DNA of 64,000 nucleotides from Geodermatophilus sp. DSM 44513 (GTDB taxonomy: Bacteria > Actinomycetota > Actinomycetes > Mycobacteriales > Geodermatophilaceae): assembly GCF_032460525.1 (NCBI RefSeq), contig NZ_CP135963.1, positions 1,426,001-1,490,000 on the forward strand, written 5' to 3'. This document shows, one piece after another, positions 41,296-64,000 of this stretch (positions are counted from its first letter, which is position 1; every line of letters begins with the position of its first letter). The notes under the pieces were generated by a model, which made no database searches, was not told the origin of the DNA, and was given only the letters and a program-made list of their open reading frames with translations. Made by a program: the position numbers and the translations under genes.

Positions 41296-42282
41296 ATGAC
41301 CGAGGTGCTGGGTCGCTACCGTCTCGTCGGCTCGTCCGACCTGGACGAGGCCCGCGAGCGGGTCGGCGAGGTCTTCTGCCCCCACGGACTCGAGCCCGTG
41401 GGGACCCGAGCGGGTGGCCGCCCGCAGGCGGTGCGCTTCAACTCCGTGACCTTCGGGGCGGTGGGGCTGTCGTACCTGTCCTACGGCAGGACGGTGCGGA
41501 TCCGCCCGCAGCCACTGCAGTCCTTCGTCCTGGTCCAGGTGCCGCTGAGGGGCCGGGCGGTCGTGCGCACCGGCGGGCGCGAGGTCGTGTCGGACCGTCG
41601 CGTCGCCTCCGTCCCCGACCCCGAGGCGGACCTGGACATGACCTGGGAGGACGGCAACGCCCAGCTCATCGTCCGGGTCGACCGGCAGGCCCTGGAAGCC
41701 CAGCTGTACCGCCTGCTGGGTCGGCCGCCGGCCAAGCCGCTGCGCCTGGCGACGAGCCTGGACACCACGACCCGGGCGGCACGCTCCTGGCTGTCGACGG
41801 TCGAGCTGCTGCGCGCGGACCTCGACGGGCCGGGCGGACTCCGGCACCCGGTGCTCCAGACCCAGGCCGAGCGGCTGGTGATGAGCCAGCTGCTCGCCGC
41901 CATCCCGCACTCCTCCTCGGCGGAGCTCGCGGCGATCGGCGGGGACGGCACGCCGCCGGTGCCCCGGGTGATCCGCCGTGCCGATCAGCTGATCACCGGT
42001 CACTGTCGCGAGCCGCTCACCGTGGAGGACGTCGCCGAGGCGGTGGGCCTGTCCGTGCGCAGCCTGCAGGAGGGGTTCCGCCGGCACCTGGACACCACGC
42101 CCACGGCCCGGCTCAGGGAGGCCCGGCTGGCCGGCGTCCGGGCGGAGCTCGCCGCCTGTGACCCGGCCCGGACGACGGTCTCCCGGGTGGCGGCCGACTG
42201 GGGTCTCCACCACCTCGGGCGGTTCGCCCTCGCCTACCGGGAGCGGTTCGGTGAGTCCCCGTCGGACACCCTGCGGAACTGA
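41296..42282 (+). CDS. AraC-family transcriptional regulator
   Basis: A 328-residue activator. The N-terminal part resembles the AraC_binding_2 domain (VTFGAVGLSYLSYGRTVRIRPQPLQSFVLVQVPLRG), and the C-terminal 100 residues carry the two helix-turn-helix motifs (VEDVAEAVGLSVRSLQEGFRRHLDTTP and TVSRVAADWGLHHLGRFALAYRERFGESPSDTLR). ATG 41296 follows GAGAGGG. It stands just upstream of, and in line with, the five-gene oxidative run 42404-48567 and probably activates it. Confidence 0.92.
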   Translation: MTEVLGRYRLVGSSDLDEARERVGEVFCPHGLEPVGTRAGGRPQAVRFNSVTFGAVGLSYLSYGRTVRIRPQPLQSFVLVQVPLRGRAVVRTGGREVVSDRRVASVPDPEADLDMTWEDGNAQLIVRVDRQALEAQLYRLLGRPPAKPLRLATSLDTTTRAARSWLSTVELLRADLDGPGGLRHPVLQTQAERLVMSQLLAAIPHSSSAELAAIGGDGTPPVPRVIRRADQLITGHCREPLTVEDVAEAVGLSVRSLQEGFRRHLDTTPTARLREARLAGVRAELAACDPARTTVSRVAADWGLHHLGRFALAYRERFGESPSDTLRN

Positions 42283-42300
42283 GCGGCGCGCACGCCGCTC
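42281..42300 (+). terminator. Short hairpin at the end of the AraC-type gene
   Basis: GAGCGGCG (42281-42288) pairs with CGCCGCTC (42293-42300) over a four-base loop, overlapping the end of the stop codon. It could end the regulator transcript and isolate it from the following operon. Confidence 0.6.
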
Positions 42301-42403
42301 CCGGCCACGGGGAACGGACACCGACCGCGTCGATCGGATGGCCGTGGGTGTCCCCGTGACGGACCCTTCGACACAGCCCCGACCCGCCCTGGAGGTAGCA
42401 GCA

Positions 42404-43177
42404 GTGTCCGTGCTCGCCACGCTGATCGGTGCCACCCGGTCCGGTTCCGTCACGGTCGTCGACCTGACGACCCCGCTGCAGGAGTCGACGCCGATCCTCG
42501 AGCTGCCGCCGCCGTTCGCCAACACCAGCCGCTTCCGCCTGGAGGAGCTGTCGCGGTACGACGACCGTGGCCCGGCCTGGTACTGGAACGACATCCACAC
42601 CGGCGAGCACACCGGCACCCACCTGGACGCCCCGAACCACTGGGTCACCGGTCGGGACGGCCTGGACGTGTCGCAGGCGCCGCTGTCCACCCTCGTCGCG
42701 CCGGCGGTCGTCATCGACCGGAGCGCCGAGGCCGCCGACGACGCCGACTTCCTGCTGCAGGTCGAGCACGTCCGGGACTGGGAGGCCGAGCACGGCCCAC
42801 TGCCCGACGGCGGCTGGCTGCTCTACCGCACCGGGTGGGCCGCCCGCGGGAACGACGCCGCGGCGTTCGCGAACGCCGACGAGCGCGGCCCGCACACCCC
42901 GGGGGTCGCCCCGGAGTGTGCGCGCTGGCTGGCCCGGGAGACCCCGATCTGCGGGCTCGGCGTGGAGACCGTGGGCACCGACGCGGGACAGGCGTCGGGC
43001 TTCGAGCCGGCGTTCCCCTGCCACTCGGAGCTCATGGGCGCGGGCAAGTTCGGCCTGACCAGCCTGCGCGACCTCGACCGGCTCCCGCCGACGGGTGCGG
43101 TGCTGGTGGTGTGCCCGCTGCCCATCGTCGGTGGGTCGGGCAGCCCGGCCCGCGTGCTCGCCCTGGTCGAGGGCTGA
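42404..43177 (+). CDS. Cyclase-family metal-dependent hydrolase (kynurenine formamidase / isatin hydrolase-like)
   Basis: A 257-residue member of the cyclase family, GTG 42404 seven bases after GGAGG. The hallmark metal site HTGEHTGTHLDAPNHW is present, with GVAPECARWLARETPICGLGVETVGTDAG later on. Characterised relatives open amide bonds: KynB cleaves N-formylkynurenine and isatin hydrolase opens isatin to isatinate. Both fit the neighbouring aminobenzoate-type genes. Which substrate is used is inference. It is the first gene of the run behind the AraC-type regulator, one base ahead of the next. Confidence 0.85.
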   Translation: MSVLATLIGATRSGSVTVVDLTTPLQESTPILELPPPFANTSRFRLEELSRYDDRGPAWYWNDIHTGEHTGTHLDAPNHWVTGRDGLDVSQAPLSTLVAPAVVIDRSAEAADDADFLLQVEHVRDWEAEHGPLPDGGWLLYRTGWAARGNDAAAFANADERGPHTPGVAPECARWLARETPICGLGVETVGTDAGQASGFEPAFPCHSELMGAGKFGLTSLRDLDRLPPTGAVLVVCPLPIVGGSGSPARVLALVEG

Positions 43178-43178
43178 C

Positions 43179-44810
43179 GTGCCGGTGCACCCCAGCGCCG
43201 CGGACGCGGTGGTCGTCGGTGGTGGCATCAACGGCCTCGTCGCCTCCGCACGCCTGGCCGCGGCCGGGTGGTCGGTGGCCCTGGTCGACGACCACGACCG
43301 GATCGGTGGGTTCATCGACGCCGAGGAACGGACCCTGCCGGGCTACGTCCACGACACCTGGTCGAGCTGGCACCCGCTGTTCGTGACCGGCCCGGCGTAT
43401 GCCGCGTTCGGCGCCGACCTGCACCGCCACGGCCTCGAGTACGTCAACTCCGACGGTCCGGTGACGGCCACCGTGGCCGACGACGGCTCGGTCGCGATGG
43501 CACACCGAGACGTCGACCGGACGGTGGACGGCTTCACCGAACCGGCCGACCGTGACGCCTACCGGGCGATGGTCACCAGGTTCGGTGCCCACGCCGCCGG
43601 GATCGGCGGGCTGCTCGGGGCCGAACTGCACGCACCGTCACTGCTCGGGCCCCTCGCCACCCTGACGCGAGCGGCCGGCCGCGCCGGCCTCGAGGAGTAC
43701 GCGCGGGACGCGCTGACGTCGGGTCGGTCCTGGACGCGGGCCCGGTTCACCGGTCCCGAGACGGACCGGTTGTGGGCTCCCTGGCTGCTGCACGCGGGGC
43801 TGGCGCCGGACTCCGCCTCCGGCGGTCTCATGGTGCCGGTCTTCGCCGCGACCCTGCACGGGGCCGGGCTCCCGGTCGTCGTCGGCGGGGCCGGCAACTT
43901 CCTGACCGCCTGGGAGCGGTTGCTGGCCGAACTCGGCGTCGCCGTGCACACCGGACGCAGGGTGGAGCGGATCCTGCTCCGCGACGGGACGGCGACCGGC
44001 GTGGCGGGCGACGGGTTCGAGATCACCGCCCACCGCGCCGTGCTCGCCTCGGTCACCCCCGGAGCGCTGTACGGCTCGCTGTTGCCGTCCGGCGCGGTGC
44101 CCACCGTGGTGTCCGAGGCCGCCGCCCGGTACCGCCCGGGCCGGGCCGCGATGCAGGTCCACGTCGCACTGTCCGGTCCGGTCCCGTGGGCCGACCCGCG
44201 GCTCACCGACGTGCCGCTCGTGCACCTCTCGGACGGCTCGTCGTCGACGGGGATCGCCTGTGCGGAGGCGGAGGCCGGCCTGCTGCCCCGGCGTCCCACC
44301 GTCGTCGTCGGCCAGCAGCACGTGCTCGACCCCTCGCGCGTCCCGGCCGGTGCTGCGGCGCTGTGGCTGCAGCTGCAGGAGCTGCCGTCCGTCCCGGTCG
44401 GTGACGCGGCGGGGGAGCTCGACACGGGCGGTGGCTGGGACGCCGGCCTCGCCGAGGGCTATGCCCACCGGGTGCTCGACCGTGTCGCGGCGCACGCTCC
44501 GGGCCTGCACGAGCTGGTGCGGGGGATCGACGTCATCACGCCGGACGCCGTCGAGGCGCACAACCCGAACGCGGTGGGCGGTGACCCCTACGCGGGCTCG
44601 GCGGAGCTGGACCAGAACTTCTGGTGGCGCCCGCTGCCGACCCCGGGCGGGCACGCCACACCGGTGGGTCGGCTCTGGCAGATCGGTGCCGCGACGCACC
44701 CCGGTCCGGGGCTGGGTGGTGCGTCGGGCTTCCTGGTCGCCGACCGGCTCGCCGCCCCGAGCCGTGCCGCCCGCCTCGCCGGGCGGCTGCAGCACGCCCG
44801 ACGACGGTAG
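43179..44810 (+). CDS. Phytoene-desaturase-like FAD-dependent oxidoreductase
   Basis: A 543-residue flavoprotein with an N-terminal dinucleotide fold (AVVVGGGINGLVASARLAAAGWSVALVDD), the RIGGF second motif and a C-terminal FAD-contacting region (RLWQIGAATHPGPGLGGASGFLVADRLA). This is the NAD(P)/FAD family that includes phytoene dehydrogenases and many catabolic amine or alcohol oxidases. No carotenoid genes are nearby, so a role on the catabolic substrate is more likely. GTG 43179 gives translation directly after the cyclase gene. Confidence 0.85.
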   Translation: MPVHPSAADAVVVGGGINGLVASARLAAAGWSVALVDDHDRIGGFIDAEERTLPGYVHDTWSSWHPLFVTGPAYAAFGADLHRHGLEYVNSDGPVTATVADDGSVAMAHRDVDRTVDGFTEPADRDAYRAMVTRFGAHAAGIGGLLGAELHAPSLLGPLATLTRAAGRAGLEEYARDALTSGRSWTRARFTGPETDRLWAPWLLHAGLAPDSASGGLMVPVFAATLHGAGLPVVVGGAGNFLTAWERLLAELGVAVHTGRRVERILLRDGTATGVAGDGFEITAHRAVLASVTPGALYGSLLPSGAVPTVVSEAAARYRPGRAAMQVHVALSGPVPWADPRLTDVPLVHLSDGSSSTGIACAEAEAGLLPRRPTVVVGQQHVLDPSRVPAGAAALWLQLQELPSVPVGDAAGELDTGGGWDAGLAEGYAHRVLDRVAAHAPGLHELVRGIDVITPDAVEAHNPNAVGGDPYAGSAELDQNFWWRPLPTPGGHATPVGRLWQIGAATHPGPGLGGASGFLVADRLAAPSRAARLAGRLQHARRR

Positions 44811-44823
44811 GACGGGGCGGACC

Positions 44824-44848: not shown

Positions 44849-44961
44849 AGTCAGGCCGCCCCGGCGAGGACAGGTGCCGGCCCACCGGCACGCCTCGAGG
44901 CGACAGCCGAGTGCCACTGACCGTCCGGCACACCCCCCCCGACGAGGACAGGAGACCTCCA

Positions 44962-46062
44962 GTGACGCGCCCGCTCACCTCGGCCCAGCACTTCACGCTC
45001 GGCCTGTTCAGCCCCAACTGCTCCTCCGGCCTGGCCGTCACGAAGGTCCCCGAACGCTGGTCGGGCAGCTGGGCGGACAACCTCCGGCTGGCGCGGCTGT
45101 CCGACGACGTCGGCATCGACTTCCTCCTGCCGATCGCCCGCTGGATCGGCTACGGCGGGGAGACGAACTTCCACGAGAGCGTCCTCGAACCGGTGGCCTG
45201 GGCGGCCGGGCTGCTCGCCGCGACCTCCCGGGTCACGGTCTTCGCCACCGTGCACACCGCGTTCAACCACCCCGTGGTGACCGCCAAGCAGCTCGCCACG
45301 GTCGACCAGATCGGCGGGGGGCGCGCGGGGATCAACATCGTCGCCGGGTGGAACAAGCCCGAGTACGACACCTTCGGCGTCGACCTCCCGACCGACCACG
45401 ACGACCGGTACGCGCTGGCCCAGGAGTGGTGGGACGTGGTGCGCCGCATCTGGACCTCGGCGGAACCGTTCGACCACGACGGTCGCTTCTTTCACCTGCG
45501 ACACGTCGAGGGCGCCCCGAAGCCGGTCGCCGGCCCCCTGCCGGTGCTCAACGCCGGGTCGTCCGAGCAGGGGCGGCAGTTCGCCGCACGCAACGCGGAC
45601 TTCGCCTTCACGATCGTGGGCGGGCCGCAGGACGGCCGGGGTGTCGTCGAGTCGGTCACGGCGCAGGCCCGCGAGGACCACGGCCGGTCGGCCGGCGTCC
45701 TCACCCTGGGCCACGTCGTCTGCCGGCCGACGCGAGCGGAGGCGGAGGAGTACCTGCACCACTACGCCGAGGAGAACGCGGACTGGTCGGCTGTGGACAA
45801 CCTCATGGCGTTGCAGGGCCTGCACGCGCAGTCCTTCACCCCGGACATGCTGGCCACCTTCCGGTCGCGGTTCGCCGCGGGGCACGGCAGCTGCCCGCTG
45901 GTCGGCAGCCCCGACGACGTGGCCGAGCAGATCGCGCAGTTCGCCCAGGCCGGGTTCGCCGGCATGACGCTGGCGTTCGTCGACTACGTCGGGGAACTCG
46001 AGTACTTCGCGCAGGAGGTCATGCCCCGCCTGGAGGCCAGGGGCGTGCGCACGCCGCGGTGA
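44962..46062 (+). CDS. LLM-class flavin-dependent monooxygenase (RutA/SfnG-like)
   Basis: A 366-residue luciferase-like TIM-barrel enzyme. The N-terminus LGLFSPNCSSGLAVTKVPERW, the stretch LARLSDDVGIDFLLPIARWIGYGG, and RAGINIVAGWNKPEYDTFGVDL place it with RutA/SfnG-type two-component monooxygenases, which use reduced FMN from a separate reductase to attack ring amides or sulfones. No flavin reductase gene is visible in the window. GTG 44962. In this cluster it may open or hydroxylate a heterocyclic ring. Confidence 0.88.
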   Translation: MTRPLTSAQHFTLGLFSPNCSSGLAVTKVPERWSGSWADNLRLARLSDDVGIDFLLPIARWIGYGGETNFHESVLEPVAWAAGLLAATSRVTVFATVHTAFNHPVVTAKQLATVDQIGGGRAGINIVAGWNKPEYDTFGVDLPTDHDDRYALAQEWWDVVRRIWTSAEPFDHDGRFFHLRHVEGAPKPVAGPLPVLNAGSSEQGRQFAARNADFAFTIVGGPQDGRGVVESVTAQAREDHGRSAGVLTLGHVVCRPTRAEAEEYLHHYAEENADWSAVDNLMALQGLHAQSFTPDMLATFRSRFAAGHGSCPLVGSPDDVAEQIAQFAQAGFAGMTLAFVDYVGELEYFAQEVMPRLEARGVRTPR

Positions 46063-46244: not shown

Positions 46245-47030
46245 GTGGACCTGCACGGACGGACCGCGATCGTCACCGGGGGCGCCACGCTGATCGGCCA
46301 CGGGGTCGTGCGCGCGCTGCACGAGGCCGGGGCGTGGGTCGTCGTGGCCGACGTCGACACCGACGGCGGGCGGGCCATCGCGACGGAGCTCGGGGACCGC
46401 GTCACCTCCCGCGCCACGGACATCACCGCGGACGCCGAGCTGACCGCGCTCGTCGACGAGGTCGTCGGCCAGCGGGGCGGCGTGGACGTGCTCGTCAACC
46501 TGGCCTGCACCTACCTGGACGACGGGCCGGACACCTCCCGCGCCGACTGGCTCACGGCGCTCGACGTCAACCTGGTGAGCGCGGTCATGGCCGCCCGTGC
46601 GGTGCGCCCGTGGCTGGCGCGCAGTGAGCACGCCGCGATCGTCAACCTCACGTCGATCTCCGCGCACGTCGCCCAGACCGGTCGGTGGGTCTACCCGGCG
46701 TGCAAGGCGGCGATGGTGCAGCTGACCCGTTCCATGGCGATGGACCTCGCCGGCGACGGCATCCGGGTCAACTCGGTGAGCCCGGGGTGGACCTGGTCCA
46801 AGATCATGGACCAGCTGTCCGGTGGGGACCGGGCGAGGACGGACACCGTCGCGGCACCGTTCCACCTGACGCACCGGGTCGGTGACCCCCTCGAGGTCGG
46901 GCGGGTCGTGGCCTTCCTCGCCTCCGACGCCGCCTCGGTGGTGACCGGCGCCGACTGGGCCGCCGACGGCGGCTACTCGGCCATGGGACCCGAGCGCGAC
47001 GTCCCCGCCATCCCCCAGCTCAGCGTCTGA
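46245..47030 (+). CDS. Short-chain dehydrogenase/reductase
   Basis: A 261-residue SDR, GTG 46245 behind GAGGAGG. Motifs: TGGATLIGHG (cofactor), an Asp at the end of the second strand (VVVADVDTDGG, suggesting NAD(H)), NLACTYLDDGP in place of NNAG, catalytic Ser in NLTSISAHV and YPACK, and SPGWTWSKIM. It lies within the oxidative run and would oxidise or reduce a hydroxy/keto intermediate. Confidence 0.9.
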   Translation: MDLHGRTAIVTGGATLIGHGVVRALHEAGAWVVVADVDTDGGRAIATELGDRVTSRATDITADAELTALVDEVVGQRGGVDVLVNLACTYLDDGPDTSRADWLTALDVNLVSAVMAARAVRPWLARSEHAAIVNLTSISAHVAQTGRWVYPACKAAMVQLTRSMAMDLAGDGIRVNSVSPGWTWSKIMDQLSGGDRARTDTVAAPFHLTHRVGDPLEVGRVVAFLASDAASVVTGADWAADGGYSAMGPERDVPAIPQLSV

Positions 47031-47058: not shown

Positions 47059-48567
47059 GTGCAGATCGCGATCATCGGTGCCGGGTTTGCCGGGCTGAGC
47101 TCGGCCAAGGTGCTGTCCCAGGTCGGGTTCGAGGTCACCGTCTACGAGAAGGCCCCGGACGTCGGAGGCGTGTGGAGCGCCACCCGCCGCTACCCCGGGG
47201 TGCGCACGCAGAACGACAAGGGCACCTACGCGCTCTCGGACTTCCCGATGCCGCCGGACTACCCCGAGTGGCCCAGCGGCGAGCAGGTGCAGCGCTACCT
47301 GGCGGACTACGTGCGGCACGTCGGGCTCGAGCCGAGCCTGCGGCTCGGTACCGAGGTCGTGAGCGTCCGACCCGCTGCCGACGGGGAGAGCTGGTCGGTG
47401 ACGACACGCGACGTGACGACGGGGGAGTCCGACACCCGCACGTTCGACCGGGTCGTCGTGGCCAACGGCATCTTCTCCGAACCCCTCGTCCCGGCCTTCC
47501 CCGGACTCGAGGAGTTCACCGCGTGCGGCGGGAGGGTCTGCGCGTCGAGCGACTTCCACGACGTGGCCGAGGCCGCCGGGCGCGACGTCGTCGTCGTGGG
47601 TTACGGGAAGTCCTCCTGCGACGTCTCCATCCCGATCAGCGACGTCGCGGCCAGCACACACCTGGTCGCCCGCGAGCTGCTGTGGAAGATGCCGCGCAGG
47701 CTCGGCGGGGTGCTCAACTACAAGTTCCTGATGCTGACGCGGATGGGCGAGGGCCTGTTCCGGTACATCCGTCCGCGGGGCTTCGAGCGGTTCCTGCACG
47801 GCCCGGGGGACGCCGTCCGGCGGCGCCTGCTGAGCGGCGTCCAGGCCGTGGCGACCCGGCAGCTGAGGCTGCGGGACCTCGACCTGGTCCCGAGGGGGAC
47901 GTTCGAGGACATCGCCCGCAGCACCGTCAGCCTGGCCACGCACGGCTTCTACGAGCGCGTGGCGGACGGCGTGATCACCGTCCACCGGGACCGGGTCGTC
48001 GCGCGGCTGCTGGAGGACGACGGACGGCCGCACGTCGAACTGTCCGACGGGACGCTCCTGCCCGCCGACCTCGTCGTGTGCGGGACCGGCTTCCGCCAGG
48101 TCGTCCCCTTCCTCGACGAGGACCTGCAGCGACGGATCACCGACGAGCGCGGGAACTTCGTCCTGTACCGGCAGATCAAGCCCATCGACGTCCCCGGCAT
48201 GTACTTCGCCGGGTACAACTCGTCGTTCTTCAGCCCGCTCAGTGCCGAGATGGCGGCTGTCTGGATCGCCCACGACCTCCTGGGGGACCTGTTGCTCCCG
48301 TCCCCCGACGACCAGCGCCGCCACGTCGACGAGCGGCTGCGCTGGATGGAGGAGCGGACGCGGGGACAGCACGCGCGGGGCACGAACGTCATCCCCTTCT
48401 CCATGCACAACATCGACGAGGTGCTCTCCGACGTCGGCGTCGACGTGGGTCCCGTGACCCGCGCACTGCAGTGGCTCCTGCCGATCGACCCCGGGTCCTA
48501 CCGGCACGTGACCGCGCACCTGCTGGCCACCTCGGACGCCGCCCGGGCGACCGCAGCCCGGACCTGA
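47059..48567 (+). CDS. FAD-dependent class B monooxygenase (FMO/BVMO-like)
   Basis: A 502-residue flavoprotein with an N-terminal FAD motif (IAIIGAGFAGLSSAKVLSQVGFEVTVYE), GGVWSATRRYPGVRTQNDKGTYALSD (FMO pattern), a second NADPH motif VVVVGYGKSSCDVSI, and the C-terminal VCGTGFRQVVPFLDEDL. The strict BVMO fingerprint FxGxxxHxxxW is not kept (SSDFHDVAEA), so N- or C-hydroxylation is as likely as Baeyer-Villiger oxidation. GTG 47059, last gene of the run behind the AraC-type regulator. Confidence 0.88.
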   Translation: MQIAIIGAGFAGLSSAKVLSQVGFEVTVYEKAPDVGGVWSATRRYPGVRTQNDKGTYALSDFPMPPDYPEWPSGEQVQRYLADYVRHVGLEPSLRLGTEVVSVRPAADGESWSVTTRDVTTGESDTRTFDRVVVANGIFSEPLVPAFPGLEEFTACGGRVCASSDFHDVAEAAGRDVVVVGYGKSSCDVSIPISDVAASTHLVARELLWKMPRRLGGVLNYKFLMLTRMGEGLFRYIRPRGFERFLHGPGDAVRRRLLSGVQAVATRQLRLRDLDLVPRGTFEDIARSTVSLATHGFYERVADGVITVHRDRVVARLLEDDGRPHVELSDGTLLPADLVVCGTGFRQVVPFLDEDLQRRITDERGNFVLYRQIKPIDVPGMYFAGYNSSFFSPLSAEMAAVWIAHDLLGDLLLPSPDDQRRHVDERLRWMEERTRGQHARGTNVIPFSMHNIDEVLSDVGVDVGPVTRALQWLLPIDPGSYRHVTAHLLATSDAARATAART

Positions 48568-55547: not shown

Positions 55548-56915
55548 TCAGCCCACGTCGGTGGCGACGGGCCGCGCGCCGGCCCCGGCCGGCTGCACCC
55601 GTGCCGGCGACGGCACCCTCGGGATCAGTGCCACGGCCGCCGCGGCGATCGCGCCGATGACGGCGAAGACCACGAAGTTCCACTGGAAGGCGAGGTCCTG
55701 CGACCCGATCCACCCGCCGACGAGCGGACCGCAGATGGCGCCGATGCGGGCGAACGACAGGGCCCAGCCCGTCGCGGTCGCCCGGGAGTGCGCGGGGTAG
55801 TACTCGGCGACCCACCCGGTGAGCACGAGGGACGTCGAGATGGACCCGATCCCGGCCAGGGAGACGAACACGTAGTTGACCCAGATGTTGTTCGGGAACA
55901 TCAGGAGCAGGATGCCCGCCGCGCCCAGCAGGTAGAAGACCACGAGGATCTTCTTCTTGCCCCGGGCGTCGGCGGTGCGACCGATCGCGATGCCGCCGAT
56001 GGCCGAGGCGAGACTGAACACGACCAGGAAGGTCAGCGAGGACCCCAGGTCGTAGCCGGCGGAGCGCATGATCGACGGCAGCCAGGTGTTCAGGCCGTAG
56101 ACCAGGAGCAGGCCGGAGAACAGCGCGATCCAGAAGAAGACCGTGGCCCTCAGGTACCGCCGCTCGAAGACGGCCGCCAACGACATCCGCCAGGTCGTGG
56201 GCGCGTGGGTGACGTCCACCGGGCGTGCCGACCAGTCCTGCTCGACGAACGGGTCGACGTGCAGGCGCCGCGCGAGGTCCGTGGCCTGCGCCCGCCGGCC
56301 CTTGCTGACCAGGTACTCCAGGGACTCCGGCAGGACCCGCCAGAGCACCGGGATCATCAGGACCGGGAGAGCACCCACCCCGACCACCCCGCGCCAGCCG
56401 ATCGTGGGCAGGAAGGCCAGCGCGACCAGGGCGGAGGTCAGGATGCCGAGGGAGTACCCCGAGTACATCAGGCCGTAGTTGAACGACCGGCGCTGCGGAG
56501 GCGAGTACTCGATGGTCAGCGCGGCTGCCACCGGGATGATGCCGCCCATGCCGATGCCACCGAGCAGTCGGCACAGCCCGAACCAGCCGGGGGTCGGGGC
56601 GAGAGCCGCGCCCAGCTGCATGCTGGCGAAGATGAACAGGGAGACGATCAGCATGTTCTTGCGACCGACCCGGTCGGACAGCGAGCCGATCGTCATGGCG
56701 CCGATGAGCATGCCCACGAGCGCGTAGGAACCGAGGGCACCCAGCTCCAGGGGGCTGAGGGACCAGGCCGGGTCGTCGGCGAGCGCGGGGAGGACGGCGC
56801 CGAGCACGCCGACGTCGTACCCCTCGGCGAGGATCGCCGCCCAGCAGGCGACCAGGACCCGGTTCGTCGTCCGGACCGGGACCGGCCACGGCCGTTGCGT
56901 GTCGGTGGATGTCAT
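55548..56915 (-). CDS. MFS aromatic-acid transporter (AAHS family, PcaK-like)
   Basis: A 455-residue 12-helix symporter from ATG 56915 behind AGGAAGG. VACWAAILAEGYDVGVLGAVLPAL, GSLSDRVGRKNML (motif A), LGGIGMGGIIPVAAALTIEYSPPQRR and GRTADARGKKKIL match the aromatic acid:H+ symporters that import 4-hydroxybenzoate, protocatechuate and similar acids. Facing the aminobenzoate-type operon across a divergent promoter region, it probably brings in the growth substrate. Confidence 0.9.
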   Translation of the reverse strand: MTSTDTQRPWPVPVRTTNRVLVACWAAILAEGYDVGVLGAVLPALADDPAWSLSPLELGALGSYALVGMLIGAMTIGSLSDRVGRKNMLIVSLFIFASMQLGAALAPTPGWFGLCRLLGGIGMGGIIPVAAALTIEYSPPQRRSFNYGLMYSGYSLGILTSALVALAFLPTIGWRGVVGVGALPVLMIPVLWRVLPESLEYLVSKGRRAQATDLARRLHVDPFVEQDWSARPVDVTHAPTTWRMSLAAVFERRYLRATVFFWIALFSGLLLVYGLNTWLPSIMRSAGYDLGSSLTFLVVFSLASAIGGIAIGRTADARGKKKILVVFYLLGAAGILLLMFPNNIWVNYVFVSLAGIGSISTSLVLTGWVAEYYPAHSRATATGWALSFARIGAICGPLVGGWIGSQDLAFQWNFVVFAVIGAIAAAAVALIPRVPSPARVQPAGAGARPVATDVG

Positions 56916-57277: not shown

Positions 57278-58099
57278 ATGCAGTTCGCGACGGTCCGATG
57301 CGCCGACGGTCGCCCCACCGCGGCGGTCAGCTGGGGCGCCGGCTGGCACCGTCTCCCGGCCCCCGACCTGTCGGCCTACCTGCGGACCTGCCTCGACCGG
57401 CCGGTCGACGAGCTCGCGGGCGAGGAGCTGGACGGTGCGGAGCTGGTGCTCCCGCTGCCCACGCCGGCCAAGGTCGTGTGCTGCGGGCTGAACTACGGCG
57501 ACCACATCCGCGAGGTGGGACGTCCGGTGCCCGCGCACCCGACGCTGTTCGCCAAGTACGCCGACACGCTGACCGGGCCCTCCGACGTGGTGTCCCTGCC
57601 GCGTGGGGTCGACGTCGACTGGGAGGCCGAGCTGGCCGTCGTCGTCGGACGGGACCTGCGGGGCGCCGGCAAGGACGAGGCGGCGGCCGGCATCTGGGGC
57701 TACACCGTGGCCAACGACGTGTCTGTCCGCGACTGGCAGAACCGGACCCTGCAGTGGTTCCAGGGCAAGGCGTGGGACCGGACGACCCCGGTGGGGCCGG
57801 TCGTGGTGTCGGCCGACGAGATCGACCCCTGCGCCGGTGTCGAGGTCCTCACCCGGGTCGACGGCGTGGAACGCCAGCGCGGCAACACCGAGACGCTGGT
57901 CTTCGACGTCGCGGACCTCGTCGCCTACACCTCCACCTTCACCCGCCTCCGGCCCGGCGACCTCGTGCTGACCGGGACCCCGGGCGGCGTCGGGATGGGC
58001 ATGACGCCACCGCTGTTCCTGCGCGACGGCCAGCTCCTGGAGACCGAGATCCCCGGCATCGGCGTCCTGCGCAACCCGATCGCCCTGACGACGACCTGA
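57278..58099 (+). CDS. Fumarylacetoacetate hydrolase (FAH) family protein
   Basis: A 273-residue FAH-fold hydrolase/decarboxylase, ATG 57278 after AGGAGG. It has VCCGLNYGDHIRE, the metal site DWEAELAVVVGRDL with YTVANDVSVRDWQ, and GDLVLTGTPGGVGMGM. The family includes fumarylpyruvate hydrolase (gentisate route), acylpyruvases and oxoacid decarboxylases (catechol meta route). It heads the operon that includes the aryl-CoA ligase and monooxygenase, so it should act on the ring-cleavage product. Confidence 0.9.
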   Translation: MQFATVRCADGRPTAAVSWGAGWHRLPAPDLSAYLRTCLDRPVDELAGEELDGAELVLPLPTPAKVVCCGLNYGDHIREVGRPVPAHPTLFAKYADTLTGPSDVVSLPRGVDVDWEAELAVVVGRDLRGAGKDEAAAGIWGYTVANDVSVRDWQNRTLQWFQGKAWDRTTPVGPVVVSADEIDPCAGVEVLTRVDGVERQRGNTETLVFDVADLVAYTSTFTRLRPGDLVLTGTPGGVGMGMTPPLFLRDGQLLETEIPGIGVLRNPIALTTT

Positions 58100-58108: not shown

Positions 58109-58603
58109 GTGCAGCCCTCCGAGAAGGACCTCCACAGCCCGCCGCTGCAGGGGGGCGACGCCAGGTACGCCGACGGGAACGGTCTGGTCGTCCCCGTGGT
58201 CACCCGTGGTGGTCTCGAGTCCCTGGACACCGGCCAGTCCTCGGGCGCCTCCCGCATCGCGGGGGTGAGCCCGCAGCACACCCCCGCGACCCGCATCTGG
58301 TTCGGCAAGGTCAGCAACGACCCCGGCTACCGGTCCGTGCCGCACCACCACGGCGAGGCCGAGACCGGCGGGTACGTCCTGTCGGGGCGCGCGCGGATCT
58401 ACTTCGGCGAGGGGTACCGGGACTACCTGGACATGGAGGAGGGCGACTGGGTGTTCGTGCCGCCCCACATGCCGCACGTCGAGTGCAACCTCGACCGCAA
58501 CCGGCCACTCACCTGGATGACCACGCGGACCCCGGACAACATCGTGGTCAACCTCGCCGACGTGGCCGACGCGGCCCTGAGGCACTGGGTCGACCGGCCG
58601 TGA
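58109..58603 (+). CDS. Small cupin-domain protein
   Basis: A 164-residue single-domain cupin starting at GTG 58109. Cupin motif 1 reads VPHHHGEAETGGYVLSGRARIYFG and motif 2 reads DWVFVPPHMPHVECNL, giving three or four metal-binding His/Glu. It is too short for gentisate 1,2-dioxygenase (two cupin domains, about 350 residues). A role as a small dioxygenase or isomerase on an aromatic or ring-opened intermediate is plausible but unproven. It lies nine bases after the FAH gene and overlaps the next one. Confidence 0.85.
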   Translation: MQPSEKDLHSPPLQGGDARYADGNGLVVPVVTRGGLESLDTGQSSGASRIAGVSPQHTPATRIWFGKVSNDPGYRSVPHHHGEAETGGYVLSGRARIYFGEGYRDYLDMEEGDWVFVPPHMPHVECNLDRNRPLTWMTTRTPDNIVVNLADVADAALRHWVDRP

Positions 58604-59529
58604 CCGGGTCACCGGGCGACGCGCCGACCTCCGCCGCGTTCACCGCCGCCATCACGCTCGACGAGCGACCGGCCCGGCACCACGACGTCGCCTACGCCGC
58701 CACGACCCAGCCCTGCCCGTGGCCCAAGGCCTACGGCGGGGACCTGGTCGCGGCCGCGGCGGCCGCCGCGATGCGGACGGTGCCCGAGGCGGGGGAGGGC
58801 GGGAAGTCGCTGCACTCCATGCACTCCTACTTCATGCGACCTGCCGACATCGGCGCGGAGGTCCTCTACGAGGTGGAGCTCCTGCGCGACGGTCGCGCCT
58901 ACAGCACCCGCCACGTCCGCGGGTACCAGAACGGCAAGCCCGTCTACGTCGCGCTCGCCTCCTTCGCCACCGGGGAGCCGGGCGACTCCTACTCCCCGCA
59001 GCCACCGGCCGTGCCGGCGCCCGAGACGCTGCCCACCTCGGCGAAGTACCTCGCCGACCGCTCCGGCGGCACCATGACCGCGGAGTCCAAGGCCTACTGG
59101 AGCGGTGGCCGCAGCTTCGACATGCGCCACGTGCCCGGGCCGGTGTACCTGACCGTCGAGGGGGACCGGGCGCCGCACCAGGCCGTGTGGTTCCGTCCCC
59201 ACGACCGGCTGCGCGAGGTCCCCGGGCTCTCGCGGGCGCAACGGGACACGGCCGCGCTGGCCTACGTCTGCGACTACACCATCCTCGAACCGGTGCTGCG
59301 CGTGCTGGGCCTGGCGTGGGCGCGTCCGGGGCTGGTCACCGCGAGCCTGGACCACGCGATGTGGTTCCACCGGGTCCCCGGGGACGGCGTCCTCGACGAC
59401 TGGCTGCTCTACGCGCAGGAGGCCGGCCACGCCGGGTCCGGGCGCGGCGTCGGCACCGGGCGCATCTCCACCCGCGACGGGCAGCTGCTGGCCACCGTCG
59501 TCCAGGAGGGCATGACCCGGGTGTCCTGA
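58600..59529 (+). CDS. Acyl-CoA thioesterase II (TesB-like)
   Basis: A 309-residue double-hotdog thioesterase, GTG 58600 overlapping the cupin stop (GTGA). The first hotdog has AYGGDLVAAAAAAAMRTVPEAG, HSMHSYFMRPADIGAEVLYEVELLRDGRAYSTRHV; the second has TASLDHAMWFHR and LLYAQEAGHAGSGRGVGTGRI, the TesB catalytic region. It hydrolyses acyl-CoA, and in this operon it may release CoA from an aryl- or ring-cleavage intermediate or protect against CoA trapping. Confidence 0.9.
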   Translation: MTGSPGDAPTSAAFTAAITLDERPARHHDVAYAATTQPCPWPKAYGGDLVAAAAAAAMRTVPEAGEGGKSLHSMHSYFMRPADIGAEVLYEVELLRDGRAYSTRHVRGYQNGKPVYVALASFATGEPGDSYSPQPPAVPAPETLPTSAKYLADRSGGTMTAESKAYWSGGRSFDMRHVPGPVYLTVEGDRAPHQAVWFRPHDRLREVPGLSRAQRDTAALAYVCDYTILEPVLRVLGLAWARPGLVTASLDHAMWFHRVPGDGVLDDWLLYAQEAGHAGSGRGVGTGRISTRDGQLLATVVQEGMTRVS

Positions 59530-59593: not shown

Positions 59594-61252
59594 ATGCAGC
59601 TGTCTCCCAGCGCCCACACGGACACCTTCGCCCGTGACCACCTGCCGCCGTTCGAGCAGTGGCCGCGGCTGGAGTTCACGACCCCGGAGCTGCAGTACCC
59701 CGAGCGGCTGAACGCGGCCGTCGAGCTCATCGACGTCGCGGTCGCCACCCACGGCCCCGACCGCCCGGCGCTCATGACCGACACCGGGGAGGTGTGGTCC
59801 TACGGCGAGCTCCAGCGCCGGACCAACCAGGTCGCGCAGGTGCTGGTCGAGGACCTCGGACTCGTGCCGGGGAACCGGGTGCTGCTGCGCTCCCCGAACA
59901 CGCCGTGGACCGTCGCGGCCTGGCTGGGCGTGCTCAAGGCGGGCGGCATCGCCGTCGTCACCATGTGCGCCCTGCGCGCCCGGGACCTGGCCCCCGTCGT
60001 GCGGAAGTCCCGGCCGGCGATCGCGCTGGTCGACCACCGCCACGTGGCCGACGTCGAGGAGGTGCGCGACGCGGAGGCGCCACAGCTGCAGCTGGTGCCC
60101 GTGGGTGGCGGTGGCGCCGGTGACCTCGTGACCCGGTGCGCCGCCAAGTCCGGTCGCTTCACCGCGGTCGAGACGGCAGCCGACGACGTGGCGCTGTTCG
60201 GGCCGACGTCCGGCAGCACCGGGGTCCCCAAGCTGACCACGCACTTCCACCGGGACGTCCTGTCCGTCGACAACACCTTCGGCCGGCGGGTCCTCGGCCT
60301 GCGCCCCTCGGACCTCGTGGCCTGCACCGCGCCCCTCGCCTTCACCTTCGGGCTCGGCATGCTCGTCGTGTTCCCGCTGCGGGCCGGCGCCTGCTCGTTC
60401 CTGGTCGAGGCGGCGACGCCTGCCCGGCTGGCCGAGCTGGTGGAGCAGCACCGGGTCACGGTGCTGGCCACCGCACCCACCGCGTACAAGCAGGTCCTCA
60501 GGGCGGGGGAGGCCGGGCGGTTGCGCTCCCTCCGGGCGGCCGTCAGTGCCGGTGAGCACCTGCCGCCGCAGGTGTGGGAACGGTTCCGGGCCGAGCTGGG
60601 GCTGCGGATCATCGACGGGATCGGCGCCACCGAGCTGCTGCACATCTTCATCTCCGCCGCCGGCGACGACATCCGTCCCGGGGCGACCGGCAGGCCGGTC
60701 CCCGGGTACCGGGCCACCGTCCTCGGCCCGGACGGCGAGGAGCTGCCGCCCGGGGTCGAGGGGCGCCTGGCCGTGGTGGGTCCGATCGGCTGCCGCTACC
60801 TGGACGACGAGCGTCAGCGCGGCTACGTCGTCAACGGCTGGAACGTCACCGGGGACACCTTCTCCCGCGACGAGGACGGCTACTTCTACTTCCGGTCCCG
60901 CACCGACAACATGATCGTCTCCTCCGGCTACAACATCGGCGGCCCCGAGGTCGAGCTGGCCATCGACAGCCACCCGGACGTCGTCGAGTGCGCGGTCGTG
61001 GGCAAGCCGGACGTCGACCGGGGCTCCATCGTCTGTGCCTTCGTCGTGCTGCGCGAGGGCGTGGTCGGGGACGAGGCCAAGGCCGAGGAGATCCAGGACC
61101 ACGTCAAGCAGCAGCTGGCGCCCTACAAGTACCCCCGCGAGGTGCACTTCCTCGCCTCCCTGCCGCGCAACTCCAGCGGCAAGCTCCAGCACTACGTCCT
61201 GCGCAACAGCATCCGTGACGAGCAGGCGGGCGCCCTCGCCCGCTCGCAGTGA
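59594..61252 (+). CDS. 2-Aminobenzoate-CoA ligase-like AMP-dependent synthetase
   Basis: A 552-residue ANL-superfamily enzyme that activates an aromatic acid to its CoA thioester. The N-terminus AHTDTFARDHLPPFEQWP and YPERLNAAVELID is what I know from 2-aminobenzoate-CoA ligases. The P-loop is TSGSTGVPK, followed by DGIGATELLHIF, the hinge RSRTDNMIVSSGYNI and the catalytic Lys in RNSSGKLQH. Salicylate or another ortho-substituted benzoate is a possible alternative. It directly precedes the matching bifunctional monooxygenase. Confidence 0.85.
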   Translation: MQLSPSAHTDTFARDHLPPFEQWPRLEFTTPELQYPERLNAAVELIDVAVATHGPDRPALMTDTGEVWSYGELQRRTNQVAQVLVEDLGLVPGNRVLLRSPNTPWTVAAWLGVLKAGGIAVVTMCALRARDLAPVVRKSRPAIALVDHRHVADVEEVRDAEAPQLQLVPVGGGGAGDLVTRCAAKSGRFTAVETAADDVALFGPTSGSTGVPKLTTHFHRDVLSVDNTFGRRVLGLRPSDLVACTAPLAFTFGLGMLVVFPLRAGACSFLVEAATPARLAELVEQHRVTVLATAPTAYKQVLRAGEAGRLRSLRAAVSAGEHLPPQVWERFRAELGLRIIDGIGATELLHIFISAAGDDIRPGATGRPVPGYRATVLGPDGEELPPGVEGRLAVVGPIGCRYLDDERQRGYVVNGWNVTGDTFSRDEDGYFYFRSRTDNMIVSSGYNIGGPEVELAIDSHPDVVECAVVGKPDVDRGSIVCAFVVLREGVVGDEAKAEEIQDHVKQQLAPYKYPREVHFLASLPRNSSGKLQHYVLRNSIRDEQAGALARSQ

Positions 61253-61262
61253 GAGGAACCTC

Positions 61263-63644
61263 GTGAAGATCGCAATCGCCGGCGGTGGTCCGGGTGGGCT
61301 CTACCTCGCCGCCCTGCTCAAGCAGCTCGACGTCGCCCACGAGGTCACCGTGTGGGAGCGCAACGCCCCCGACGACACCTTCGGGTTCGGTGTGGTCTTC
61401 TCCGACGAGACCCTGGGCGCCATCGAGGGCGCCGACACGGTCATCCACGAGCAGATGGCCAGCCGCTTCGCCCGGTGGACCGACATCGACATCGAGGTCG
61501 ACGGCCACCCGTTCACCGTCGGCGGCCAGGGCTTCGCGGCCATGGGGCGCAAGGACCTGCTGCGTCTGCTGCAGGACCGAGCGGCGGAGCTGGACGTGAC
61601 GGTCCACTACCGGACGGAGGCGCCGGACGTCGACGAGCTCCGTGCCACCCACGACCTGGTCGTCGCCGCGGACGGCCTCAACTCGCCCATCCGCACGAAG
61701 CACGCCGACGTCTTCCGCCCCACCCTGGACTACCGCCGGAACAAGTACATCTGGCTCGGCACGGACCTCGTGTTCGAGGCGTTCCAGTTCTTCGTCAAGC
61801 AGACGGAGTGGGGGACCATGCAGATCCACGGGTACCCCTACTCCGACAGCGCGTCGACGTTCATCGTCGAGATGCACGAGGACGTCTGGCGCCGGGCGGG
61901 CTTCGACGCCACCGAGCACGAGACCTTCCCCCCGGGCGTCTCCGACGAGTACGCGGTCGAGCGGATCCGGCAGGTCTTCGCCGACGAGCTCGCCGGGCAC
62001 CGGGTGCTGACCAACAACTCCAAGTGGCTGAGCTTCGCCACCGTCCGCAACGACTGCTGGCACCACGGCAACGTGGTCCTCCTGGGGGACGCGGCGCACA
62101 CCGCGCACTTCTCCATCGGGTCGGGCACCAAGCTGGCGATGGAGGACGCCCTGGCGCTGGCGGCCTGCCTGCACGAGAACCCGACCGTGGAGGAGGCCCT
62201 GGAGGCCTACCAGGTGGAACGCAAGCCGGTCGTCGAGTCGACCCAGCGGGCGGCGCAGGCCTCCCTGGAGTGGTTCGAGAACATCGGCATGTACGCCGGC
62301 CAGGAGCCGGCCCAGTTCTGCTTCAACCTGCTGACCCGCTCGCGCCGGATCACCTTCGAGAACCTGCAGGAGCGGGACCGGGAGTTCGCCTACCGCGTCG
62401 AGTCCGCGTTCGCGGAGGAGAACGGGGCGGCGGAGGTGGCGCCGGCGATGTTCCAGCCCGTCGACATCGGCCCGCTGCGACTGCACAACCGCGTCGTCCT
62501 CTCGCCGATGGACATGTACAGCGCCCAGGACGGCGTGCCCAACGACTTCCACCTGGTGCACCTGGGCTCCAAGGCCCTCGGCGGTGCTGGGCTGGTCATG
62601 ACCGAGATGGTCTGCACCTCACCCGAGGCGCGGATCACGCCCGGCTGCACCGGGTTGTGGAACGACGAGCAGTGCGAGGCCTACCGCCGGATCACGGACT
62701 TCGTGCACCAGCGCACCCCGGCCAAGATCGGTCTGCAGCTGGGGCACTCGGGCCGCAAGGGGTCGACCCGGCTGATGTGGGAGGGCATCGACGAACCGCT
62801 GCTGGAGAACAACTGGGAGGTCATCAGCCCCTCCCCGTTGCCCTACGGCGAGGGGTCGCACCCCCCGCGCGAGGCCTCCGCGGCCGACCTGGAGGGGGTG
62901 GTCGCCGACTTCGTCGCGGCGGCCGAGCGGGGTGTCCGGGCGGGCTTCGACCTCATCGAGCTGCACGCGGCGCACGGCTACCTGCTCTCCTCGTTCCTCT
63001 CGCCCATCTCCAACCAGCGGACCGACGAGTACGGCGGCTCGCTGGGCAACCGGTTGCGCTTCCCGCTCGCCGTCTTCGACGCCGTGCGTGCCGTCGTCCC
63101 CGAGACCATCCCCGTGACCGTCCGCATCTCGGCGCACGACTGGATGCCGGACGGCAACACCGAACACGACGCCGTGGAGATCGCCCGCGCGTTCGTCGAG
63201 CACGGCGCGGCGGCCATCGACGTGTCGTCGGGGCAGGTGGCGAAGGACGAGCAGCCGGTGTTCGGGCGGTCCTACCAGACCCCCTTCGCCGACCGGATCC
63301 GCCAGACCGTCGCCGTGCCCGCCGGGGCGAAGGTCATCGCCGTCGGCGCCATCTCGTCCTACGACGACGTCAACTCGATCCTGCTCGCCGGCCGCGCCGA
63401 CCTCTGCGCGCTGGGGCGCACGCACCTCTACGACCCGCAGTGGACCCTGCACGCCGCGGCCGAGCAGGAGTACCAGGGCCCGGGCGCGCCGTGGCCGGAC
63501 CAGTTCCGCGCCGGCCGACGCAAGCCCCCGACCTCGCGCACGGACAAGGTGCCCCCGCGGCTGGCCCTGCTCCGAGCGGGGAACGCCGACCCGGTCCACC
63601 TGCGGTGGACGCCGCACCGTGACGACGCCGCCCGGCCCGCCTGA
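61263..63644 (+). CDS. Bifunctional FAD monooxygenase-OYE fusion: 2-aminobenzoyl-CoA monooxygenase/reductase or salicylyl-CoA 5-hydroxylase type
   Basis: A 793-residue two-domain flavoenzyme, GTG 61263 behind GAGAGGAAC. Residues 1 to about 395 are an aromatic hydroxylase (IAIAGGGPGGLYLAALLKQLD, DLVVAADGLNSPIR, VVLLGDAAHTAHFSIGSGTKLAMEDA). Residues about 405-793 are an old-yellow-enzyme/NADH:flavin oxidoreductase domain (LRLHNRVVLSPMDMYSAQDG, HAAHGYLLSSFLSPISNQRTDEYGGSLGNR). This fusion is known from 2-aminobenzoyl-CoA monooxygenase/reductase (hydroxylates and then reduces the ring) and salicylyl-CoA 5-hydroxylase. With the ligase upstream the aminobenzoyl-CoA route is preferred. Confidence 0.9.
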   Translation: MKIAIAGGGPGGLYLAALLKQLDVAHEVTVWERNAPDDTFGFGVVFSDETLGAIEGADTVIHEQMASRFARWTDIDIEVDGHPFTVGGQGFAAMGRKDLLRLLQDRAAELDVTVHYRTEAPDVDELRATHDLVVAADGLNSPIRTKHADVFRPTLDYRRNKYIWLGTDLVFEAFQFFVKQTEWGTMQIHGYPYSDSASTFIVEMHEDVWRRAGFDATEHETFPPGVSDEYAVERIRQVFADELAGHRVLTNNSKWLSFATVRNDCWHHGNVVLLGDAAHTAHFSIGSGTKLAMEDALALAACLHENPTVEEALEAYQVERKPVVESTQRAAQASLEWFENIGMYAGQEPAQFCFNLLTRSRRITFENLQERDREFAYRVESAFAEENGAAEVAPAMFQPVDIGPLRLHNRVVLSPMDMYSAQDGVPNDFHLVHLGSKALGGAGLVMTEMVCTSPEARITPGCTGLWNDEQCEAYRRITDFVHQRTPAKIGLQLGHSGRKGSTRLMWEGIDEPLLENNWEVISPSPLPYGEGSHPPREASAADLEGVVADFVAAAERGVRAGFDLIELHAAHGYLLSSFLSPISNQRTDEYGGSLGNRLRFPLAVFDAVRAVVPETIPVTVRISAHDWMPDGNTEHDAVEIARAFVEHGAAAIDVSSGQVAKDEQPVFGRSYQTPFADRIRQTVAVPAGAKVIAVGAISSYDDVNSILLAGRADLCALGRTHLYDPQWTLHAAAEQEYQGPGAPWPDQFRAGRRKPPTSRTDKVPPRLALLRAGNADPVHLRWTPHRDDAARPA

Positions 63645-64000
63645 GGACGGGGCGGTCCGGGGGGTCCACCGCGGTCGAGTGGAGTGGATCGACACCGACG
63701 CCGCGGGGATCCACCACAACACGGCGATCACCCGCTACACCGAGAGCGCCGAGGCGGCGTTGATGCGCTCGCGGGGCCTGCAGCAGGCGTACTTCCCGCG
63801 GGCCCCGCGGGTGCGCTACGAGGTCGACGTCGAGGCACCCCTGCGGGTCGGGCAGGAGCTGACCGCCGTGGTGGACCTGGTACGGATCGGCACGTCGTCG
63901 ATGACGTTCGCCTTCGAGGTCTGGGGCGAGGCGTTCGCCGGCCACCCCCGGCGGCGTGCGGCGGCCGGTCGGTTCGTCACCGTGCACCTCACGGGGGAGC
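63619..64000 (+). CDS. 4-Hydroxybenzoyl-CoA thioesterase-like hotdog protein (incomplete)
   Basis: A frame open to the right edge, so the gene is cut by the window. Translation from GTG 63619 (overlapping the previous gene by 26 bases; GTG 63679 is an alternative start) gives VEWIDTDAAGIHHNTAITRYTESAEAALMRSRGL, the active-site helix region of 4HBT-type thioesterases, then RVRYEVDVEAPLRVGQELTAVVDLVRIGTSSMTFAFEVW. At least 127 residues are present. It continues the catabolic operon. Confidence 0.82.
   Translation, partial: MTTPPGPPEDGAVRGVHRGRVEWIDTDAAGIHHNTAITRYTESAEAALMRSRGLQQAYFPRAPRVRYEVDVEAPLRVGQELTAVVDLVRIGTSSMTFAFEVWGEAFAGHPRRRAAAGRFVTVHLTGE

Follow-up and report, generated by a model that had tools for sequence, protein, structure and literature searches.

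The window analyzed here is a 64,000-nucleotide stretch of the genome of Geodermatophilus sp. DSM 44513, a one-contig, high-G+C genome of 4.63 Mb (NZ_CP135963.1, positions 1,426,001 to 1,490,000; G000:C1:1426001-1490000 in our numbering). From position 41239 to its end it carries 18 genes that probably constitute a supercluster for the catabolism of an indolic compound via isatin, in which the oxidoreductase IorAB would act as an isatinate:ferredoxin oxidoreductase that makes anthraniloyl-CoA; we put the probability of this reading, as judged from sequence comparison, at about 0.63. Isatin hydrolase would convert isatin to isatinate (2-aminophenylglyoxylate), which is a 2-oxo acid, and IorAB would then catalyze its thiamine pyrophosphate (TPP)- and CoA-dependent oxidative decarboxylation to anthraniloyl-CoA and CO2, with the electrons passing to ferredoxin. 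We infer the IorAB reaction from the chemistry of the family and from its genomic context. Genes were predicted from codon statistics and their proteins were scanned against NCBIfam and Pfam, and all of the gene classes claimed in an earlier, sequence-only reading of this DNA were present; its proposal of a single supercluster feeding anthraniloyl-CoA is likewise supported.

The gene at 42404..43177 (+), referred to as CYC, is predicted on strong homology to encode the isatin hydrolase that opens isatin to isatinate. Its product is 49 to 50% identical to the characterized isatin hydrolases LaIHA, LaIHB, and RsIHA (PDB 5nnb, 4j0n, and 5nmp; PMC6117287), which are 50 to 59% identical among themselves, and scores 280, 268, 267, and 250 bits against four PDB isatin hydrolase chains, as opposed to 22 bits against kynurenine formamidase. 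With residue roles taken from the description in PMC6117287, the Mn ligands H69, H73, and D75 and the catalytic residues H79, D193, and H207 are kept in all 52 aligned genomic sequences, including that of the window, and the LaIHB pocket residues F63, W65, W84, and F209 correspond to W, W, W, and F in CYC. CYC thus shares the catalytic set and the aromatic pocket with these enzymes but differs from them in being set inside a CoA pathway. The sequence-only reading had placed this protein in a kynurenine-formamidase/isatin-hydrolase group; the second half of that label stands, with isatin strongly supported as the ring-opened intermediate by the homology and the intact catalytic residues, and the first half does not, the KynB model TIGR03035 giving 25.8 bits against a cut-off of 223. 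The source genome contains a second isatin hydrolase, 70% identical to the first, at 2.48 Mb (G000:C1:2480858-2483310, L126:8359-10811), which adjoins a single-chain TPP decarboxylase-like gene.

The proposed oxidoreductase is encoded by iorA (51538..53766, +; TIGR03336, PF02775), which specifies the TPP and Fe-S subunit, and iorB (53763..55418, +), which specifies a subunit with POR and DUF6537 domains (NF006179, 656 bits, cut-off 348) and whose first 4 bases are also the last 4 of iorA. IorA scores 258.7 bits against TIGR03336, a family curated for indolepyruvate:ferredoxin oxidoreductase, and does not reach its cut-off of 650.9; it had no match in a PDB sequence search. All 82 aligned IorA sequences (82 of 82) have the GDG...N motif and seven C-terminal cysteines without variation. 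The TPP motif, the Fe-S cysteine domain, and the POR subunit that mark a 2-oxoacid:ferredoxin oxidoreductase of the IOR type are all present.

The incidence of the type of IorA found in the window follows that of isatin hydrolase. Among 150 tool-drawn genomes of a Variovorax genome's family, which served as the proteobacterial control, 19 encode an IorA 60 to 72% identical to that of the window (type I) and 29 encode only a form of 53 to 58% identity (type II), the 60% line being our own choice and one genome (G410) lying at 60% on a partial match. Isatin hydrolase occurs in 15 of the 19 type I genomes, in none of the 29 with type II only, and in none of the 102 with no IorA (P = 2.4e-17), with up to seven IorA and six ACMR (anthraniloyl-CoA monooxygenase/reductase) candidates scored per genome in these surveys, so that absences are not absolute. 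ACMR occurs in 16 of 19, 16 of 29, and 52 of 102 genomes of the same three classes (type I versus the rest, P = 0.012). Against backgrounds in this family of 15/150 for the hydrolase and 84/150 for ACMR, the tie between hydrolase and IorA is nearly exact and that between ACMR and IorA is weak, because ACMR is common there (68 of 131 genomes without type I IorA).

Similar associations appear in a set of 24 IorA genomes (8 actinobacterial and 16 proteobacterial by record title) that was hand-picked, not randomly drawn, from the 80 IorA loci most similar to the query. All 24 encode a full-length ACMR, which in 15 of them lies no more than 30 kb from IorA, and 22 encode isatin hydrolase, in every case within 30 kb of IorA. 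The phylum backgrounds (ACMR in 28 and isatin hydrolase in 27 of 296 genomes) apply to the eight actinobacteria, and for ACMR a comparison of ten IorA actinobacteria (these eight plus the source genome and G050, a set that was not randomly drawn) with 27/295 gives P = 2e-10. IorA itself was detected in 2 of 76 genomes of the source family and in 1 of 296 genomes of the phylum, too rarely for a phylum-wide contingency; the phylum surveys of IorA and ACMR scored up to three candidates per genome, and their absences are not absolute. Across the 80 IorA loci, which are the best 80 of 597 and include several short stretches, 43 have an isatin hydrolase within the stretch examined. The sequence-only reading had treated the Ior pair as an indolepyruvate-type enzyme; indolepyruvate is not supported as its substrate, since the recurrent partner of the pair across genomes is isatin hydrolase.

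Where IorAB is lacking, other TPP enzymes occupy its place beside the hydrolase. The phylum sample contains 29 hydrolase genes in 27 genomes, and the neighborhoods of all 29 were examined: within 1 kb of the hydrolase, 18 have a single-chain TPP 2-oxoacid-decarboxylase-like gene and 6 a split TPP_N/TPP_C pair, these 24 being counted as homologues 53 to 100% identical to profiled enzymes. The remaining loci are the window, with IorAB, and four with no TPP enzyme in view. The single-chain enzymes are 53 to 66% identical to the one profiled (L110), whose nearest family is 5-guanidino-2-oxopentanoate decarboxylase (218 bits, below the cut-off of 500), and the profiled split pair (L131) is nearest to sulfopyruvate decarboxylase alpha and beta, also below cut-off. 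In the source family, all six loci that have ACMR and the hydrolase without IorAB have the single-chain enzyme 6 to 129 bp from the hydrolase. The clearest case is a locus from the same order (L145, genome G353), which combines TesB, ligase, ACMR, 4HBT, AraC, TPP enzyme, hydrolase, CrtFAD, FMO, and SDR with no IorAB, and its genome gave no IorA match in the phylum survey. Neither the single-chain nor the split enzyme was found in any of the best 80 of 597 IorA loci. Such alternation of different TPP 2-oxo acid enzymes beside one hydrolase is expected if the product of the hydrolase is a 2-oxo acid, and isatinate is one.

The pairing of isatin hydrolase with a two-gene, sulfopyruvate-decarboxylase-like enzyme was seen at L131:8850-9946 and in L128, L132, L134, L135, and L136, and in four of these loci (L131, L134, L135, and L136) a PaaK-like ligase is also present within about 5 kb.

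The same oxidoreductase and hydrolase are found in the iad locus for auxin degradation. In Variovorax boronicumulans (L028), the gene order is MarR, IorA, IorB, reductase, Rieske alpha and beta, AMP ligase, thiolase, ChsH2-SDR, cyclase, and SDR, matching the iad locus of V. paradoxus CL14 and Bradyrhizobium as described in PMC9613470 and PMC12633357. By family and by gene order in L028, as opposed to alignment with the CL14 sequence, IorA and IorB are identified as IadA and IadB and the isatin hydrolase as IadI, and homologues of IadA and IadB, which PMC9613470 treats as iad markers, are both in the window. The window cluster differs from iad in having no Rieske oxygenase, thiolase, or MarR regulator and in having instead FMO, SDR, CrtFAD, LLM, and a joined ACMR module: the Rieske oxygenase IadDE, which attacks indole-3-acetate, is not among the genes called at 41 to 64 kb, nor are the reductase, thiolase, and ChsH2-SDR of the iad order in the cluster, the search for all of these being confined to that region. 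The end product given for iad in PMC9613470 and PMC12633357 is anthranilate, whereas anthraniloyl-CoA is predicted here from IorAB.

The texts consulted on iad assign no step to IadA or IadB, and the words IadA, IadB, decarboxyl-, and aminobenzaldehyde are absent from the main text of PMC12633357. Metabolites of formula C8H7NO3 and C7H7NO, which we read as isatinate and 2-aminobenzaldehyde, are reported in PMC12633357 to accumulate strongly only when iadC-K2 is over-expressed in an iad-deletion strain. Because the deletion covers gene 72, which is iadA (PMC9613470), such strains would possess IadI and not IadAB, and on our reading a build-up of the isatinate formula is what the loss of an isatinate-consuming IadAB would produce.

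The lower module, predicted to dearomatize anthraniloyl-CoA, resembles a described operon. The genes for a FAH-family C-C hydrolase (57278..58099, +; PF01557), a single-domain cupin (58109..58603, +; PF07883), a TesB-type acyl-CoA thioesterase (58600..59529, +; profile scans), a benzoate-CoA-ligase-like, predicted anthranilate-CoA ligase (59594..61252, +), and ACMR (61263..63644, +), the last an FMO and OYE fusion (NF006101, 1191.5 bits, cut-off 1078), follow one another at 57.3 to 63.6 kb, an arrangement shared gene for gene with plasmid pAL1 of Arthrobacter sp. Rue61a (L156). The pAL1 operon also contains RidA and is flanked by PaaX genes; their counterparts in the window are RidA (49882..50298, -; PF01042) and a PaaX-family regulator (50401..51249, -; PF07848/PF20803/PF08223). 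Identities to pAL1 are 72% for RidA, 70% for ACMR, 64% for the cupin, 61.3% for the ligase, 57% for FAH, 55% for TesB, and 48% for PaaX. RidA is assigned to the lower module because it adjoins FAH or the cupin in relatives, with 81 to 90% identity in G050, G001, and G075. For pAL1, PMC3534580 gives a measured activity of the anthranilate-CoA ligase, describes CoA esters of C7H7NO3 and C7H8O4, and reports growth of the host on anthranilate, apparently via CoA thioesters only, and not on salicylate or gentisate; the ligase gene was matched to the assayed ARUE_113p00220 by its place in the operon, the record having new locus tags only. Both the ligase and the two-domain ACMR that together indicate an anthraniloyl-CoA pathway are present in the window by homology. 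The two systems differ in that anthranilate arises from quinaldine in pAL1 (PMC3534580), and neither IorAB nor isatin hydrolase occurs in the pAL1 stretch examined.

In the proposed sequence, the ligase would activate any free anthranilate, ACMR would hydroxylate and partially reduce the ring, as is known for its family, and RidA would deaminate the enamine or imine made by ACMR, a step that we read as supported by the C7H8O4 CoA ester of pAL1. FAH, the cupin, and TesB would complete ring opening; the cupin gave only weak oxalate decarboxylase matches in a PDB sequence search, and its AlphaFold model (mean pLDDT, 35) was not used. A 4HBT-type thioesterase gene (63619..64000, +; PF03061) begins within the window and ends at 64086, beyond it. 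The aromatic acid:H+ symporter (55548..56915, -), an MFS protein whose best family is TIGR00895 (296.8 bits, below the cut-off of 418.55), has relatives of 59% identity beside ACMR in L157 and of 57% identity between IorA and IorB in L025; with the PaaX and AraC regulators it would round off the cluster. ACMR is full length in 18 of 76 genomes of the source family and is cut at contig ends in 3 more. In the phylum sample, ACMR and isatin hydrolase occur together in 12 genomes as opposed to the 2.6 expected (P = 3e-7). In Pseudomonas gessardii, a gentisate-dioxygenase-like bicupin (L025:17978-19108) and an FAH hydrolase follow ACMR, which suggests gentisate-like ring cleavage after ACMR in that organism.

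The two halves of the cluster recur together in other genomes. G050, from another genus of the source family, has 16 of the 18 genes within about 21 kb and in a different order, with only the exported hydrolase and the MFS symporter missing. Plasmid NZ_LR134455 of Tsukamurella tyrosinosolvens has 15 of the 18 (PaaX, RidA, FAH, cupin, TesB, ligase, ACMR, MFS, isatin hydrolase, IorA, IorB, CrtFAD, FMO, SDR, and AraC) plus a nitrilase. Within the stretches examined, the counts are 10 and 12 in Nocardioides (L003 and L005), 11 in Pimelobacter (L004), 11 in Nocardia (L006), 12 in Pseudonocardia (L009 and L155 combined), and 9 in Leucobacter (L154), and only lower-module genes appear in the G001 and G075 stretches (7 and 6, respectively). 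The sequence-only reading would have been refuted had the halves never co-occurred, but they are found together in G050, in the Nocardioides, Pimelobacter, and Nocardia loci, and on the Tsukamurella plasmid. That reading knew of no described system with this combination in actinobacteria, which is only partly right: the lower half is of the pAL1 operon type, and the pairing of IorAB with the hydrolase is shared with the iad locus of Variovorax. No description of the combination of these with FMO, SDR, the CrtFAD flavoprotein, and LLM was found in the open-license literature.

The upper module would supply isatin from the starting compound. It comprises CrtFAD (43179..44810, +), by family scans an FAD enzyme of the CrtI/amine-oxidase superfamily and the probable upstream oxidase; an LLM flavin-dependent monooxygenase, RutA/SfnG-like by profile scan (44962..46062, +); an SDR dehydrogenase (46245..47030, +; NF006121, above cut-off); and an FMO-type flavin monooxygenase (47059..48567, +; PF00743). 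FMO, SDR, and CrtFAD occur as a group in G050, L004, L145, L155, and L157, where the SDR homologues beside FMO/CrtFAD are 70 to 73% identical to that of the window. In ten actinobacterial and proteobacterial loci (L004, L006, L009, L012, L013, L025, L064, L072, L145, and L150), CrtFAD is no more than about 220 bp away from CYC. The LLM gene occurs without FMO, SDR, or CrtFAD in the examined stretches of L003, L005, and L154, and adjoins a flavin reductase gene in L003. PDB searches with CrtFAD, LLM, and FMO returned family-level matches only. Our guess at the starting substrate is indole, and the route that we favor from family chemistry is as follows: FMO would convert indole to indoxyl, CrtFAD would oxidize the keto form of indoxyl to a cyclic imine, and, after hydration, SDR would dehydrogenate the hydrated imine to isatin, with LLM as a probable alternative oxygenase. 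The iif and ipo-dho routes of indole degradation described in PMC12538310 and PMC6221969 are similar in leading from an indole-type compound to anthranilate through flavoproteins and an SDR, but the iif cluster has, according to the review PMC6221969, no isatin gene, whereas isatin hydrolase is central to the window. The probable regulator of this module is of the AraC family (41239..42282, +; AraC_binding_2 and HTH_18; AndR-like at 190 bits, below the cut-off of 350) and has a 74% identical relative adjoining isatin hydrolase in Pseudonocardia L155. Nitrilase-family carbon-nitrogen hydrolases lie in the IorAB/hydrolase clusters of Tsukamurella (L157:11891-12982) and P. gessardii (L025:20160-20990), which may point to nitriles or amides as entry substrates.

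Several observations weigh against an isatinate:ferredoxin oxidoreductase. In Variovorax, iadC-K2 without iadAB fully restored anthranilate (PMC12633357), so that IadAB is not needed for anthranilate there and another route from isatinate exists, and the C8H7NO3 build-up could be a mere effect of over-expression. Formation of the CoA ester by IorAB would leave the ligase partly redundant. The open-license literature yielded no enzyme assay of any type I IorAB, and the family takes its name from indolepyruvate. In the window, IorA and the hydrolase are 8.4 kb apart and not adjacent. The hydrolase is missing from the examined stretch in 37 of the 80 IorA loci (many of these stretches being short), from 5 of 12 source-family regions (G075, G001, G002, G046, and G074), and from 4 of the 19 type I genomes of the Variovorax family, 3 of which 19 lack ACMR; the frequency of ACMR in that family irrespective of type I IorA and the hand selection of the 24 genomes belong here as well. 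No TPP enzyme is in view at L144, L149, L150, or L153 (a contig end is near in L149 and L150), and G075 has a TPP decarboxylase-like gene with no hydrolase in the stretch examined. Finally, position 219 of CYC is Thr, where LaIHA and RsIHA have Gln, an Mn ligand, and LaIHB has Ala.

Alternative explanations concern the substrate of IorAB, the source of the CoA ester, and the entry compound. The upstream substrate might be indole-3-acetate, as in iad, and not indole: IorAB and the hydrolase do correspond to IadA, IadB, and IadI, but the window cluster has none of IadDE, the reductase, the thiolase, and the ChsH2-SDR, and L072 has two copies of the hydrolase, of which the one linked to SDR and CrtFAD is separate from the one that ends the iad-like run. 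These make an indole-3-acetate origin doubtful, and a direct indole-3-acetate pathway inside the window was rejected, as no iadC-H genes are among those called. A TPP step that yields 2-aminobenzaldehyde or free anthranilate, with the ligase as the sole source of anthraniloyl-CoA and IorAB mainly a decarboxylase or dispensable, would account for the ligase genes of the window and its relatives, for the decarboxylase-like enzymes that replace IorAB elsewhere, and for the anthranilate formed by Variovorax without iadAB (PMC12633357). We nevertheless consider it unlikely, since the seven invariant cysteines of the Fe-S domain point to a redox, ferredoxin-coupled reaction and since none of the 18 genes encodes an aldehyde dehydrogenase. 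That IorAB is an arylpyruvate (indolepyruvate) oxidoreductase leading from tryptophan to indoleacetyl-CoA, with an adjacency to the hydrolase that is organizational only, is what the family names TIGR03336 (at its subthreshold score) and NF006179 would imply. This is somewhat less likely again: no obvious next step for indoleacetyl-CoA is encoded among the 18 genes, type I IorA tracks isatin hydrolase (15/19 versus 0/131) while its type II relatives, possibly arylpyruvate enzymes, do not, and other TPP enzymes stand beside the hydrolase where IorAB is absent.

Two further alternatives would uncouple the lower module from isatin. A module acting on salicylate, through salicylyl-CoA to gentisyl-CoA and independently of the isatin genes, is suggested by the NCBIfam name "salicylyl-CoA 5-hydroxylase" and by the bicupin beside ACMR in P. 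gessardii; it is very improbable in view of a gene set and order equal to those of pAL1, whose ligase was assayed with anthranilate (PMC3534580), of RidA, which implies an amine, and of the co-occurrence of ACMR and isatin hydrolase in the phylum sample. Salicylate as the main lower substrate was rejected on the likeness to pAL1 and the growth of its host. That the halves are unrelated neighbors in a catabolic island might be read from the solitary lower modules of G001 and G075 and from the benzoate/catechol genes next door, but the shuffled co-occurrence in G050 and on the Tsukamurella plasmid, together with the 9 to 12 genes shared by L003 to L006, L009/L155, L154, and L145, leaves it scarcely credible.

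The reading of IorAB as an isatinate:ferredoxin oxidoreductase extends beyond the window. We consider it probable, if slightly less so than for the cluster itself, that type I IorAB is an unrecognized aerobic enzyme of this kind, that it joins isatin opening to CoA-dependent anthranilate dearomatization, that this is also the function of IadAB, and that two other TPP types replace it in other actinobacteria; no description of an isatinate-oxidizing oxidoreductase was found in the open-license literature, a search that mostly leaves out subscription papers. The iad locus, of which iadA and iadB are the hallmark genes, matters for the removal of auxin by root bacteria, and auxin degradation by iad bacteria could then run through anthraniloyl-CoA. 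A 2018 review (PMC6221969) raises the questions of whether aerobic indole breakdown truly passes through isatin and which gene cluster handles anthranilate; the present cluster and its relatives would offer a concrete answer, namely isatin hydrolase together with a TPP enzyme that acts on isatinate, in a route coupled to anthraniloyl-CoA. A ferredoxin-reducing, ATP-saving step would be added to an aerobic aromatic pathway, and gene names could be corrected in many genomes.

The gene between the two halves (48717..49745, -) encodes an apparently exported alpha/beta hydrolase that probably stands outside the pathway. The sequence-only reading had taken it for an arylformamidase-like member of the pathway, but it resembles esterases of the hormone-sensitive-lipase (HSL)/BD-FAE fold, and none of the other loci compared has a match to it; the arylformamidase role was rejected on these grounds. 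Its N terminus has an RR-SFL stretch, which we take to be similar to a Tat signal. Given the lack of relatives in the compared loci, the gene is perhaps a recent insertion between the halves.

Genes for aromatic compounds continue beyond the window in a benzoate/catechol (ben-cat) island at 64.3 to 74.2 kb. By Pfam, this island contains catC, catA, catB, benA, benB, and a benC-benD fusion, accompanied by an MFS symporter and a LysR regulator that were both judged by eye. The fusion, which follows benA and benB, is an unusual three-part protein of 919 residues (L002:12400-15159, or 71400-74159 in window numbering) that joins a benzoate dioxygenase reductase with Fer2/FAD/NAD domains to an FCD regulator-type domain and a BenD-like SDR.

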